DNA of 64,000 bases from Flavobacteriales bacterium. Its GTDB lineage: Bacteria > Bacteroidota > Bacteroidia > Flavobacteriales > Flavobacteriaceae. Location: positions 1-64,000 of the forward strand of contig SGZF01000004.1 of the NCBI GenBank assembly GCA_004213645.1, read 5' to 3'. Position numbers and translations under genes: made by a program. The number at the start of each line of letters is the position of its first letter. Position 1 is the stretch's first letter. Under the pieces are notes generated by a model. It had not been told where the DNA came from. It did not search any database and worked only from the letters and a program-made list of their open reading frames with translations. Positions 14,917 through 52,273 of the stretch are shown here, piece after piece.

Positions 14917-14949
14917 TTGTTTAACGAAAAAAAAAAAATTGTAGATTTG
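14917..14949 (+). promoter_or_regulatory. Candidate promoter for the 14972 gene
   Basis: TAGATTTG at 14942-14949 is a perfect -7 box of the TAnnTTTG type; a TTG at 14917-14919 lies 22 bases upstream, slightly further than the usual 19-21. The downstream ATG is at 14972, giving a leader of roughly 17 bases. A run of 12 A lies in the spacer. Confidence 0.45.
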
Positions 14950-16358: not shown

Positions 16359-16881
16359 AAAAAGCATTTTAATAAAAGCTCCAAAGAAGCTTCCTGTTAG
16401 GCCTACAACTGATAAGGTTAAAGAGTCTCTTTTTAATATAATATCGAATAAATTTGATATTGCTGAACTTATTGTTCTTGATCTATTTTCTGGTACCGGC
16501 AATATTTCATATGAGTTTTCTTCCAGAGGTTGTAAAGAAGTTTTATCTGTAGATAATAACATTAATTGTATAAAGTTTATAAATAAAACCAATTTTGAAC
16601 TGGGACTAAAAATTAATACTAAGAAAATTGACTTTAAAAAATTTTTAATAACTAATACTAAAAGATTCGATATAATTTTCGCAGATCCCCCATATAATTT
16701 TTTATTGAAAGAATATATAGAAATGATTAATTTAATAAAAGAAGGTGAAATATTAAAAGAGAATGGAGAGATAATTATAGAACACAGCTCAAAAATTTTA
16801 TTATCTGAAAATTATAATGAAATAGATGAGAGAAAATACGGATCTTCTTCATTAAGTTTTATAAAAAAAGCAAGCCTATAA
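16336..16881 (+). CDS. rsmD: 16S rRNA (guanine966-N2)-methyltransferase RsmD
   Basis: RsmD methylates G966 of 16S rRNA during 30S assembly. The N-terminus MRIISGSKKSILIKAPK and RPTTDKVKESLFNII are typical, the SAM-binding motif I is VLDLFSGTGNISYE near residue 50, and the N6/N2-methyltransferase motif IV is FADPPYN near 115. The 181 residues are full length. The final codons (Ala-Ser-Leu-stop) lie opposite the 3' end of the RNase P RNA gene, so the two transcripts converge and overlap by 12 bases. Confidence 0.93.
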   Translation: MRIISGSKKSILIKAPKKLPVRPTTDKVKESLFNIISNKFDIAELIVLDLFSGTGNISYEFSSRGCKEVLSVDNNINCIKFINKTNFELGLKINTKKIDFKKFLITNTKRFDIIFADPPYNFLLKEYIEMINLIKEGEILKENGEIIIEHSSKILLSENYNEIDERKYGSSSLSFIKKASL

Positions 16882-17150
16882 GCCGGATTCTGTCGTGTCT
16901 TATCATTTATCTAGGTATAATATTACTATTACACTCAAACCGCCTACCCTTCTACTTAAAACGAGCAGTTTTAAAACGTAGATATACTTGGCGTTTCACC
17001 ATGCAGAGTTTACAAGATTCCACTACAGCATTACCTGTACATACTTTCTGTTGCACTATTCCTATCAATTATGATGGCGGGCGTTACCCGCTACATTGCT
17101 CTTTGGTGTCCGGACTTTCCTCTGAAAAATTCAGCGATAAGAAGGCTTGC
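16870..17150 (-). ncRNA. rnpB: RNase P RNA (type A, compact)
   Basis: The catalytic RNA of RNase P, read on the minus strand. Helix P1 is a perfect 8-bp pairing of the 5' GCAAGCCT (17143-17150) with the 3' AGGCTTGC (16870-16877). Conserved elements appear in order: GAGGAAAGTCCGGACACC (P4 5' strand, CR-I), a CAGAAAGTAT element (CR-II), GGTGAAACG (CR-III), GATAAATGATAAGACACGAC, and ACAGAATCCGGCTTAT (CR-V, P4 3' strand). About 281 bases is short for a type A RNA, so some peripheral helices are probably reduced. The 3' 12 bases overlap the end of rsmD. A -7 promoter box is 5 bases upstream of the 5' end. Confidence 0.95.
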
Positions 17151-17154
17151 AATA

Positions 17155-17162
17155 CAAATATA
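17155..17162 (-). promoter_or_regulatory. -7 promoter box of rnpB
   Basis: TATATTTG on the minus strand is a perfect TAnnTTTG match ending 5 bases before the 5' end predicted from helix P1. Promoter and RNA start therefore support each other. No clear TTTG -33 element is seen. Confidence 0.6.
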
Positions 17163-17224
17163 ATACTTGTTGATAATTTTATTAAAAAAAATAGTCTATT
17201 TAAGAATAAAATTTTCTCAATCTT

Positions 17225-17232
17225 TATATTTG
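17225..17232 (+). promoter_or_regulatory. -7 promoter box of dnaX
   Basis: TATATTTG is a perfect TAnnTTTG match whose last base is only 6 bases before the dnaX ATG (17239). If used, the mRNA would have a leader of at most a few bases. A -33 TTTG is not evident, so this is weaker than the rpsA promoter. Confidence 0.45.
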
Positions 17233-17238
17233 TTGTTA

Positions 17239-18297
17239 ATGAATAGTTCACTTTCATCTGCATCAGAATATAGACCTAAGACCTTCAAAGATATGATAGG
17301 TCAAGATGCTATTGTAAAGACACTTTCTAATGCTATAAAGAATGACAATATACCTCAAGCTCTTCTTTTTTGTGGTCCAAGAGGAGTTGGTAAAACATCT
17401 TGCGCTCGAATTTTAGCAAAGAACATAAACAACTTAGAAGAAAATTTTGAATATAATATTTTTGAACTTGATGCAGCATCAAATAATTCTGTTGAAGATA
17501 TCAGAAATATAACTGATCAGATTAGGATTCCACCTCAAGTTGGCAAGTATAAAGTATATATAATTGATGAAGTTCATATGCTTTCAAATCAAGCATTTAA
17601 TGCATTTCTTAAATCATTGGAAGAACCACCTAAACATGTTGTATTTATTCTTGCAACAACTGAAAAAAATAAAATTATTCCTACAATTTTATCTAGATGT
17701 CAGATTTATGATTTTAAAAAAGTAGATAATACATCAATAATCAAGTTATTAAGTAATATTTGTGAGGATAAAAAAATTAAATATGATGAAAATTCATTAT
17801 CTCTAATTGCAGATAAATCAGATGGGTCTATAAGAGATTCGCTATCAATGTTTGATAGACTAGTCAGCTTTACTGATTCAAATTTAAATATAGAAAATGT
17901 AACATTAAATCTTAATATTTTAGATTACGATACATACTTTGAGATATCAAGCTACATTCTAGAAAAGAACATAAATGGTATCCTAACTAAATATAATGAT
18001 ATTTACAATCGTGGATTTGATGATGTTAATTTATTAAATGGTTTGTCAAGGCATTTTAGAGAAATATTAATAACTAAAATGAATTCTTCAGATAACATTT
18101 CAAGTCTAAAGAATGATCTAGTTAAAAAATATTTAAAATACTCAAAAGATTTCTCAGATGAAAATCTCATTTTAATGATTGATGTTATAAATGAAACCTT
18201 AATAAATTATCAAAAGGTAAATGATAAAAGGATTCATACTGAGCTTTGCTTAATGAAATTAGCTTCAATTGATAGCTCTAAAAAAAAAAATCCCTGA
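17239..18297 (+). CDS. dnaX: DNA polymerase III subunit gamma (short product of dnaX)
   Basis: DnaX is the AAA+ clamp-loader subunit. I start it at the ATG at 17239 (MNSSLSSASEYRPKTF), since upstream in-frame codons lie in the rnpB/dnaX promoter region. Walker A is GPRGVGKT (46-53), Walker B IIDEVHM near 108-113, and the sensor SRC is at 152-154. The four-cysteine zinc module that follows Walker A in Escherichia coli is absent: AKNINNLEENFEYN runs straight into FELDAAS, as I recall for other Bacteroidota. The frame ends after 352 residues at TGA 18295-18297, two codons past an 11-A run. The tau C-terminal part continues in the -1 frame, so this is read as gamma. Confidence 0.93.
   Translation: MNSSLSSASEYRPKTFKDMIGQDAIVKTLSNAIKNDNIPQALLFCGPRGVGKTSCARILAKNINNLEENFEYNIFELDAASNNSVEDIRNITDQIRIPPQVGKYKVYIIDEVHMLSNQAFNAFLKSLEEPPKHVVFILATTEKNKIIPTILSRCQIYDFKKVDNTSIIKLLSNICEDKKIKYDENSLSLIADKSDGSIRDSLSMFDRLVSFTDSNLNIENVTLNLNILDYDTYFEISSYILEKNINGILTKYNDIYNRGFDDVNLLNGLSRHFREILITKMNSSDNISSLKNDLVKKYLKYSKDFSDENLILMIDVINETLINYQKVNDKRIHTELCLMKLASIDSSKKKNP
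18280..18290 (+). promoter_or_regulatory. A11 slippery run in dnaX (putative frameshift site)
   Basis: Eleven consecutive A (18280-18290) read as AAA AAA AAA AAT CCC TGA in the gamma frame. A shift of -1, or insertion of one A during transcription, continues into an intact downstream frame. The -1 frame has a TAA immediately before the run (18279-18281), so it can only be entered within the run. Thermus thermophilus dnaX uses transcriptional slippage at an A run and Escherichia coli uses A-AAA-AAG ribosomal frameshifting, both to make gamma and tau. A sequencing or assembly error in the homopolymer is the main alternative. Confidence 0.7.
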
Positions 18298-18836
18298 TTA
18301 AAACTTCAGAATTAAAAAATTTTAAAAATGATTCTAATCAAATAAAAACTAAACAATTAAGCAGCACTTCAAATCTTTTGATAGATAATAAGGAAAAAAA
18401 TATTTCTTCACTTTCATTAGCCAGCCTAAATTTAAAAAAAACAAATGAAATTATTGAAAAAGAAATATTACCAAATAACGAATTTACTGAAAATGATTTT
18501 TTAAATGCATGGAAAAAATTCTGTGAGATAGAAAAAGATAATGGTAATAATAATATTCTATCACTTTTAAATATGAATAATCCAAGTATTAAAGACAACG
18601 TAGTTTTTATTAATACAGTTAATAAAATGAATTTTAAGGAAGTTAATGCATACAAGAATAAAATTCAGGCTTTTATCTCAAAAGAATTAAATAATTATTC
18701 AGTTTCCGTAGAGGTTAAGTTGTCAAAAGATAAAAACAAAAAATCATATATTGATAATAAAGAAAAGCTTGATATTATTAGTAAAAGCAATACAAGTGTT
18801 GCTTTATTAATTGACGAATTTAAATTAAGAATCTAA
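18288..18836 (+). CDS. dnaX: Tau-specific C-terminal extension of DnaX (-1 frame)
   Basis: This frame is open from the A11 run to TAA at 18836 and adds about 180 residues, so shifted DnaX (tau) would have 532 residues. The first 80 are a polar, Lys/Ser/Asn-rich linker. From about 18480 there is a compact domain: FTENDFLNAWKKFCEIE, then a strand-rich part, and a final TSVALLIDEFKLRI, which matches the C-terminal domain of Bacteroidota gamma/tau proteins as I remember it (a W-K-x-F segment, then a final LID-x-F-x-L). In tau this region binds the polymerase alpha subunit and helicase. There is no independent ATG start ahead of the domain. The last 12 bases overlap the convergent ppx gene. Confidence 0.8.
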   Translation, partial: KSLIKTSELKNFKNDSNQIKTKQLSSTSNLLIDNKEKNISSLSLASLNLKKTNEIIEKEILPNNEFTENDFLNAWKKFCEIEKDNGNNNILSLLNMNNPSIKDNVVFINTVNKMNFKEVNAYKNKIQAFISKELNNYSVSVEVKLSKDKNKKSYIDNKEKLDIISKSNTSVALLIDEFKLRI

Positions 18837-50662: not shown

Positions 50663-50845
50663 ATTTATGATTTAGTGAAGGAATATATAATAATTCCTAC
50701 ATAATTACCACCTTTGATTTTAACAAAAAAAAAATTAAAAATCAATAGCTAACATTATTTTTTTTTCATTTTTTTTAACTAATATTTGTAATCAACCAAA
50801 AACAATGTTTCATAAATATATTCAATTAATATCTAGGTAAAAAAA

Positions 50846-52273
50846 ATGAGTCAAACACCCTCTGCTGTATGGAACAATTGTTTATCTTTTATAAAGGATA
50901 ATATTCAGCCACAAGCTTACAACACTTGGTTTGAACCAATTATTCCAATTAAACTTACAGATGAAGCTTTGAGTATTCAGGTTCCTAGTAAATTTTTTTA
51001 TGAGTGGATCGAGGAACATTATGTGAAAATCTTACGTATTGCATTAACTAAAGAACTAGGACCCGATGCTAAACTTGTCTACATAATCAAAATGGAAAAT
51101 ACGTTTGGTAATAAAATGCCATTTACGGAAAAAATCCCTAGCTCATCTAGCACAAACATCAAATCTCAATCTATTGACTCACCCTTTAGCAACTTTGCTT
51201 CAGAACTTAAGAACCCATTTGTAATTCCTGGTATAAGGAATTTACAGATAGAATCTCAACTTAATGCTAATTATACATTTGAAAACTTTTTAGAAGGTGA
51301 TTCCAATAGATTAGCAAGGTCAGCTGGTATTGCGGTTTCAAATAAACCTGGAGGCACATCATTTAATCCACTTTTAATATATGGAGGTGTAGGACTGGGA
51401 AAAACTCACCTCGCTCATGCTATTGGAGTTGATGTAAAACAAAAATATCCTGATAAAACTGTTCTTTATATTTCAGCTGAAAAATTCACACAGCAATATG
51501 TTGACTCAGTTAAAAAAAATTCGAGAAATGATTTTATCCATTTTTATCAAGTCATTGATGTTTTAATTGTTGATGATGTTCAGTTTCTTTCCGGAAAATC
51601 AGGAACTCAAGATGTATTCTTTCATATTTTTAATCATCTTCATCAAAATGGTAAACAAGTTATTTTAACTTCTGATAAATCACCAATTGAAATGCAGGAT
51701 ATAGAACAAAGACTGTTATCTAGATTTAAATGGGGATTGTCAGCAGAATTACAAAATCCTAATTTTGAAACTAGAGTTTCGATTCTAAAAAATAAACTCT
51801 ATAGGGACGGAGTTACAATTAAGGATGAAGTTATAGACTATGTCGCAAAAAATATTAATTCTAATGTTAGAGAGTTAGAAGGAGCTATAATTTCATTAAT
51901 TGCTCAGTCATCATTTAATAAAGCCGAGATTACTGTAGATCTTGCAAAGGAAGTTATTAATAAATTTGTTAAGAATAATAAAAGAGAGGTTTCTATTGAC
52001 TATATTCAGAAAGTTGTTTCTGATTACTTTCAAATGGATATACAAACTTTACAATCAAAAACTAGAAAGAGACATATTGTTCAGGCTAGACAAATTGCAA
52101 TGTATTTTGCAAAAAAATTCACTAAAGCTTCACTTGCAAGTATTGGATCTCAAATAGGAAGAAGAGATCATGCTACTGTACTTCATGCATGTAAAACTGT
52201 AGACAACTTAAGCTTTACAGACAAGCAGTTTAGAAAATATGTTGAGGATTTAACTCAAAAACTTTCAAATTAA
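50846..52273 (+). CDS. dnaA: Chromosomal replication initiator DnaA
   Basis: DnaA opens the origin for replication. The 475-residue chain has N-terminal domain I (AVWNNCLSFIKDNIQPQAY with the hydrophobic WFEP motif), a linker of about 50 residues, AAA+ domain III with Walker A YGGVGLGKTHLAHA near 179-192, VLIVDDVQFLSGK, and SRFKWGLSAEL, and domain IV with the DnaA-box-binding helix RRDHATVLHACKTV near 445. I found no clear DnaA boxes in the 183-base AT-rich upstream region or the rest of the window. Confidence 0.97.
   Translation: MSQTPSAVWNNCLSFIKDNIQPQAYNTWFEPIIPIKLTDEALSIQVPSKFFYEWIEEHYVKILRIALTKELGPDAKLVYIIKMENTFGNKMPFTEKIPSSSSTNIKSQSIDSPFSNFASELKNPFVIPGIRNLQIESQLNANYTFENFLEGDSNRLARSAGIAVSNKPGGTSFNPLLIYGGVGLGKTHLAHAIGVDVKQKYPDKTVLYISAEKFTQQYVDSVKKNSRNDFIHFYQVIDVLIVDDVQFLSGKSGTQDVFFHIFNHLHQNGKQVILTSDKSPIEMQDIEQRLLSRFKWGLSAELQNPNFETRVSILKNKLYRDGVTIKDEVIDYVAKNINSNVRELEGAIISLIAQSSFNKAEITVDLAKEVINKFVKNNKREVSIDYIQKVVSDYFQMDIQTLQSKTRKRHIVQARQIAMYFAKKFTKASLASIGSQIGRRDHATVLHACKTVDNLSFTDKQFRKYVEDLTQKLSN

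Follow-up and report, generated by a model that had tools for sequence, protein, structure and literature searches.

A dnaX gene split at a conserved A-run points to slippage-made gamma and tau subunits in Bacteroidota

The dnaX gene of the window, the whole stretch of 64,000 nucleotides of Flavobacteriales DNA analysed here, is split at a run of 11 adenines into a frame for the gamma clamp-loader subunit and a tau-specific part that lies in the -1 frame. We propose, with a probability of about 0.84, that programmed RNA polymerase slippage (realignment) on this run yields both gamma and tau from the one gene. The locus comprises the following features:

17239 to 18297, plus strand: dnaX 0-frame open reading frame, gamma, with AAA+ clamp-loader ATPase, lid and domain III (open reading frame, Pfam, NCBIfam)
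18280 to 18290, plus strand: A11, the putative slippage run and sole possible frame junction (sequence; A10-A12 in 22 of 22 congeners)
18279 to 18281, plus strand: TAA in the tau frame across the start of the run, blocking an upstream junction (sequence; genus comparison)
18295 to 18297, plus strand: TGA terminating gamma in the default frame, 4 nt 3' of the run (sequence)
18299 to 18301, plus strand: TAA ending the third frame, 8 nt 3' of the run (sequence)
18291 to 18836, plus strand: -1-frame coding of the tau-specific part, 181 codons and a stop codon (NF011531 453-612; dN/dS)

Direct reading of the sequence in the window places the start of the DnaX frame at ATG 17239 and its end at TGA 18295-18297, giving a product of 352 amino acids. 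The A11 run (18280-18290) is flanked by T18279 and T18291, and the gamma frame passes through it as AAA AAA AAA AAT CCC TGA. As the tau frame has a TAA at 18279-18281 and is thereafter open until TAA 18834-18836, the junction between the two frames is confined to the A-run. The third frame is closed by TAA 18299-18301. With one added A, tau would consist of 347 residues, 4 lysines and a further 181 residues, 532 in total. The initial annotation had described a dnaX frame ending just past A11 with tau coding continuing at -1 to 18836, a junction possible only within the run, and products of 352 and 532 residues; all of this is borne out by the sequence, the tau length on the assumption of one extra A.

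Taken alone, A11 is not unusual in the AT-rich window, with three matches (two distinct runs) against 4.76 expected from dinucleotide shuffles. The remaining runs of at least ten A, an A12 at 14927-14938 and an A10 at 50725-50734, fall between listed open reading frames of at least 60 amino acids; the latter lies upstream of the open reading frame at 50846-52273, which by eye we take to resemble dnaA. Just upstream of dnaX, on the opposite strand, is an RNase P RNA (RF00010, 201.6 bits). Because this RNA occupies 16863-17153 on the minus strand, the open reading frame at 17001-17246 is probably spurious.

Profile searches identify both halves as DnaX. The gamma frame matches NCBIfam dnaX_nterm at 369.2 bits (cut-off 250) and exceeds the Pfam cut-offs for DNA_pol3_delta2, DNAX_ATPase_lid and DNA_pol3_gamma3 (PF13177, PF22608, PF12169). 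The full-length model NF011531 is matched by both, with gamma residues 4-349 covering model positions 4-367 and the tau part covering 453-612 of 614 (E 4.2e-11); its whole-protein cut-off of 685 bits is reached by neither half alone. In a profile search of the same genome, these two adjacent DnaX pieces were accompanied by only two further, weak DnaX-model matches (46.2 and 23 bits).

Domain V of tau, the KH-like polymerase-binding domain, shares a fold of the DnaA domain I type. The predicted model of the tau part (18291-18833) is of low confidence (mean pLDDT 69.1, pTM 0.44), and VIA ranks DnaA domain I first (rmsd 2.5 over 79 residues, Z 9.0). DnaA and DciA rows come next at Z 7.8-7.9, and numerous unrelated ones reach about Z 6. 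Such a likeness to DnaA domain I and to DciA, a helicase loader, would weakly suit a replisome-binding domain in the tau part, and the model hints at a replisome-binding module common to these proteins. A search of the tau profile against solved structures gave nothing at E up to 1, and Foldseek gave nothing at E of 0.001 or below. The matches listed in the structure comparison include no solved tau chain, which is not evidence against a domain V fold.

The split arrangement is shared within the genus. Our genus search covered 25 genomes and found dnaX in 22, with no dnaX-level match in G013, G014 and G023. An A10-A12 run sits at the junction of all 22 genes, and both frames other than that of tau are closed within 15 nt after it in every one. 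In 14 of them the gene is split with tau at -1, and each of these 14 carries a tau-frame stop at the same upstream place; in the other eight, tau is in frame with gamma. The comparison thus finds the run kept throughout and the shifted frame in the majority, and the eight unshifted genes all retain the run. The nearest named relatives, at 82-85% identity, are Cryomorphaceae bacterium MED-G11 and Flavobacteriales and uncultured Bacteroidetes records; among the genus search matches there is no second genome of the same species, the nearest showing 84% identity. The genus tree requires a minimum of four switches between split and intact. Adding four other rows of the family gives five changes, four of them forced by well-supported branches, and a FastTree tree of 125 loci, with branch support unweighted, gives 14 changes, or 16 with three states (two rows being +1). 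All of these trees were built from the dnaX sequence that precedes the run.

In split species, codon comparisons show purifying selection on the tau-only part. Across nine split-split pairs of the genus, its dN/dS lies between 0.14 and 0.27, close to the values in two intact pairs (0.226 and 0.229) and in one mixed pair (0.192). Two pairs were dropped, G003-G015 (misaligned, probably owing to Ns) and G000-G020 (saturated dS). The gamma part of the same split pairs shows tighter constraint than tau (0.056-0.117). Low tau-only dN/dS in split species implies that tau is probably produced there. Like the architecture of the locus, its conservation and the flips between arrangements, this selection rests on sequence.

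Beyond the genus, a run of at least nine A (A9-A13) is found at the site in 245 of the 264 Bacteroidota genomes classified, which are a subset of the search matches and are related, so that the counts are not independent. The run is present in 22/22 genomes of the genus, 99/100 of the family sample, 28/28 of a second genus (g132), 3/3 congeners of the +1 cases discussed below, 54/58 of the order, 18/19 of the class and 21/34 of other classes of the phylum. Of the 19 genomes lacking it, 13 belong to these other classes, where the most GC-rich stretches (0.70-0.73) are without the run; in families f9 and f23, A10 is retained despite 63-64% GC in the fetched stretch. All 41 named loci have A10-A12, although at least 19 of them are apparently genus members already counted. 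Upstream of the site, the gamma part of 125 loci holds just seven runs of at least nine A in 124,536 bases. Lysine triplets elsewhere in the gamma part are encoded by pure AAA in 1 of 28 instances, in comparison with at least nine A at the site in 123 of 124 loci, and we therefore reject a protein-level need for three lysines as the sole reason for the run. A chance run is likewise ruled out by the conservation in relatives, even if such a run is by itself no rarity in the window.

In 187 of 243 genes, stops close both non-tau frames no more than 15 nt past the run; among 4,920 control positions in the gamma part, this holds for 16%. In intact genes, an extra A leads into the frame with the nearer stop, at a median of 3 nt compared with 14 nt in the other frame. 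The splits with an assigned frame number 78, of which 73 are at -1 (71 with at least nine A) and five at +1; their runs are 9-12 long except at two A6G sites, and none is 7 or 8.

Several rules define these counts. The run was taken as the longest A-run starting between 60 nt before and 150 nt after the end of the match (or before the 0-frame stop); because it is defined by position, a few of the runs counted in intact genes may be non-homologous. The family sample is non-random, with all listed short-frame genes taken except G039 and G065 near contig ends, and its split fractions are therefore not rates. L131 (G162) was omitted from the counts, G235 and G276 run off the contig end, and G044 and G236 were scored by script as short without tau. 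By eye, L113 (G044) is a split dnaX with tau at -1 and GAA AAG TAA at the junction, with no long A-run. In L251 (G236), on a contig of 344,793 bases, dnaX seems to stop after gamma and no tau is present in the stretch examined; it may come from a reduced genome that encodes gamma alone.

Both the occurrence of slippage and its level, as well as a use for each subunit, are inferred here. An unslipped mRNA would give gamma of 352 amino acids, and an mRNA with one A more (or two fewer) would join the halves into tau of 532 (or 531) amino acids. The remaining class of mRNA would end at 18299-18301 with a gamma-like product. One gene would thus supply the clamp loader with both gamma and tau. Selection would act to preserve the run and the stops close to it in the non-tau frames, and small indels would flip the unslipped product between species. 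The reading of slippage-made gamma and tau offered in the initial annotation is supported, with both halves matching NF011531 and the gene split in 14 of 22 congeners. RNA polymerase slippage is indicated by the run length, the stops in both frames, the splits in both directions and the lack of a general hairpin: over 242 sites, structures after the runs have a mean z of -0.25, with 8.7% below -2.

The 73:5 bias to -1 speaks against the simplest model, in which slippage runs equally well both ways. Since one added A rescues a gene that is one base short, the excess fits insertion-biased slippage. In Buchnera, homopolymer runs held 151 of 157 transcription insertions as opposed to 16 of 57 deletions (PMC5574713). 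For E. coli RNA polymerase, no deletion was observed on the poly(A) runs studied, and on 7-11 A the efficiency of insertion is cited as at least double that of deletion (PMC6260861). Two observations from these studies weigh against slippage: the E. coli enzyme slips less readily on A-runs than on T-runs (PMC6260861), and in Buchnera no frame was seen to be restored (PMC5574713).

The main alternative is that the ribosome, not RNA polymerase, slips -1 at A_AAA_AAA within the run and so makes tau. The run in the window is A11 followed by T, which offers A_AAA_AAA and not the A_AAA_AAG slip site; the former occurs in phase in every run of at least nine, and the ribosome could accordingly supplement or replace RNA polymerase slippage. 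The -1 direction of 73 of the 78 framed splits is what such a mechanism predicts, and by the criterion given in PMC3711429 a one-sided direction would indicate ribosomal frameshifting. A review also places the reversed dnaX type under ribosomal frameshifting (PMC5009743). The 60 nt after the run in the window fold at -5.0 kcal/mol with z -2.4 (genus mean z -0.57), but the segment 18280-18380 gives -5.0 kcal/mol with z -0.36, a weak, AU-rich structure, and runs in general are not followed by a hairpin. An SD-like GATGGAG abuts the run in many genes of the family (e.g. L121, L123 and L125), yet by eye the 20 nt before the run in the window hold neither GGAG nor AGGA. Moreover, apart from the two A6G sites the splits have runs of at least nine where a heptamer would suffice, and the stops also close a frame that a -1 slip never enters.

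The +1 splits weigh further on this question. Since a -1 ribosomal slip is unable to make tau in these five genes, they support RNA polymerase slippage. Each is a single genome (G219, G116, G290, G204 and G237). In G219 and G116, a single A separates the gene from that of a congener, and these two may be homopolymer errors. A one-A error does not explain the other three: G290 has congeners with the same GGAGC start that are intact or -1, the other two classified genomes in the genus of G237 are -1, and G204 is the sole genome of its genus here. Having weighed the review's placement and the hairpin values, we consider ribosomal slippage unlikely at this locus, and comparison among relatives speaks for transcriptional slippage rather than -1 ribosomal frameshifting.

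Family f7 offers an instructive contrast. Two of its genomes, G241 (L231) and G269 (L247), carry CCA AAA AAG TAG instead of the long A-run, while the other nine classified genomes of the family have A10. A hairpin begins six or seven nt after the run in both, with a shared GGTCTG/CAGACC stem and energies of -26.5 kcal/mol (z -5.4) in G241 and -20.6 kcal/mol (z -1.1) in G269. With A_AAA_AAG, TAG and hairpin, these genomes probably use ribosomal frameshifting, which adds to the case for the ribosome as an agent. They share the slip site and hairpin with E. coli, but the shift would make tau, and the roles are therefore reversed. Judged by sequence, E. coli-like frameshifting seems to have taken the place of RNA polymerase slippage in this pair; the contrast rests on two genomes, and the genus of G241 has no other genome here.

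The remaining alternatives fare far worse. Long homopolymers are prone to error, the window genome is a draft of 77.69% completeness, and eight of the 22 congeners are intact, all of which would suit an assembly or sequencing error that hides a gene with A12 (or A9) reading through in a single frame. Against this, 14 species of the genus have the split, separate projects produced the named records, and G006, G017, G011, G010, G016 and G012 have A10 followed by C or G, which is not a mere change in A count; we regard error as very improbable. Decay of the gene, with tau lost and its frame a relic, is less probable still: the small genome (1,043,041 bases) and the stop in the 0-frame would agree with it, but tau-only dN/dS in split pairs resembles that of intact pairs, the tau frame is open over 181 codons, the split recurs in 14 genomes, and the own-genome search gave just the two weak DnaX-model matches. 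Both explanations are rejected on the split shared in the genus and the low tau-only dN/dS, and the open tau domain, taken in the initial annotation as a sign against decay, is upheld as such.

Returning to slippage by RNA polymerase, the distribution suggests that it is probably ancestral and near-universal in much of Bacteroidota, with the A-run and not the frame being conserved, and that one lineage switched to ribosomal frameshifting with a new hairpin. As long as the run is the conserved trait, repeated flips of the unslipped product between gamma and tau would cost little, and almost all would go the way that insertion-biased slippage is able to rescue.

Split dnaX genes have precedents. 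With GeneTack, Antonov et al. (2013; PMC3711429) described a split dnaX with A10 among 17 genes in 12 genera, none of which was so annotated in RefSeq. Poly-A was present in 12 of the 17 (nine with A10, the others with 9, 8 and 7), and transcriptional realignment was proposed. Those genes resemble the present one in having two open reading frames, a -1 shift at the DNA level, poly-A at the junction and a tau that needs recoding. They differ in that the run is A11 here. The section on those genes names just three species, all Chlorobi; it describes no genus with both split and intact genes, nor a reversed direction, nor a run conserved in intact genes. The reversed dnaX type is also mentioned in PMC5009743, with an unpublished Chlorobium candidate. 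The initial annotation knew of no such description for Flavobacteriia. This may still hold for Flavobacteriia, as no account of dnaX slippage there was found among the titles and abstract beginnings of the literature matches listed, but a split A10 dnaX as such had been reported in 2013. What looks new is the wide spread in Bacteroidota and the recurrence of the flips; the split poly-A dnaX was already known.

Other recoded genes offer partial parallels. Thermus thermophilus dnaX has A9, transcriptional slippage, stops in both other frames, and gamma and tau as products (PMC1088944, PMC5009743); slippage is predicted for the present gene. The window shares two Thermus-type features, a conserved run of at least nine A and, 4 and 8 nt beyond it, stops that close both non-tau frames. 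In Thermus, however, tau is the unslipped product, whereas here it is gamma; eight of the 22 congeners have the Thermus arrangement. E. coli dnaX also gives gamma and tau from one gene (PMC5009743, PMC3711429), as predicted here, but there gamma arises from a -1 ribosomal frameshift at A_AAA_AAG, stimulated by an SD-like element and a stem-loop. In Shigella flexneri mxiE, slippage is likewise required for the longer product of two overlapping open reading frames (PMC1088944), although this is a different gene with a U run.

If the proposed mechanism is true, a stop inside an essential replication gene would be normal in many Bacteroidota, and many of their dnaX genes may carry truncated or broken annotations. 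The need for gamma has long been controversial in E. coli (PMC5009743). The making of both gamma and tau would have been retained across most of the sampled phylum while the route to them drifted, and these lineages would serve as natural replicates in studies of why cells require gamma.
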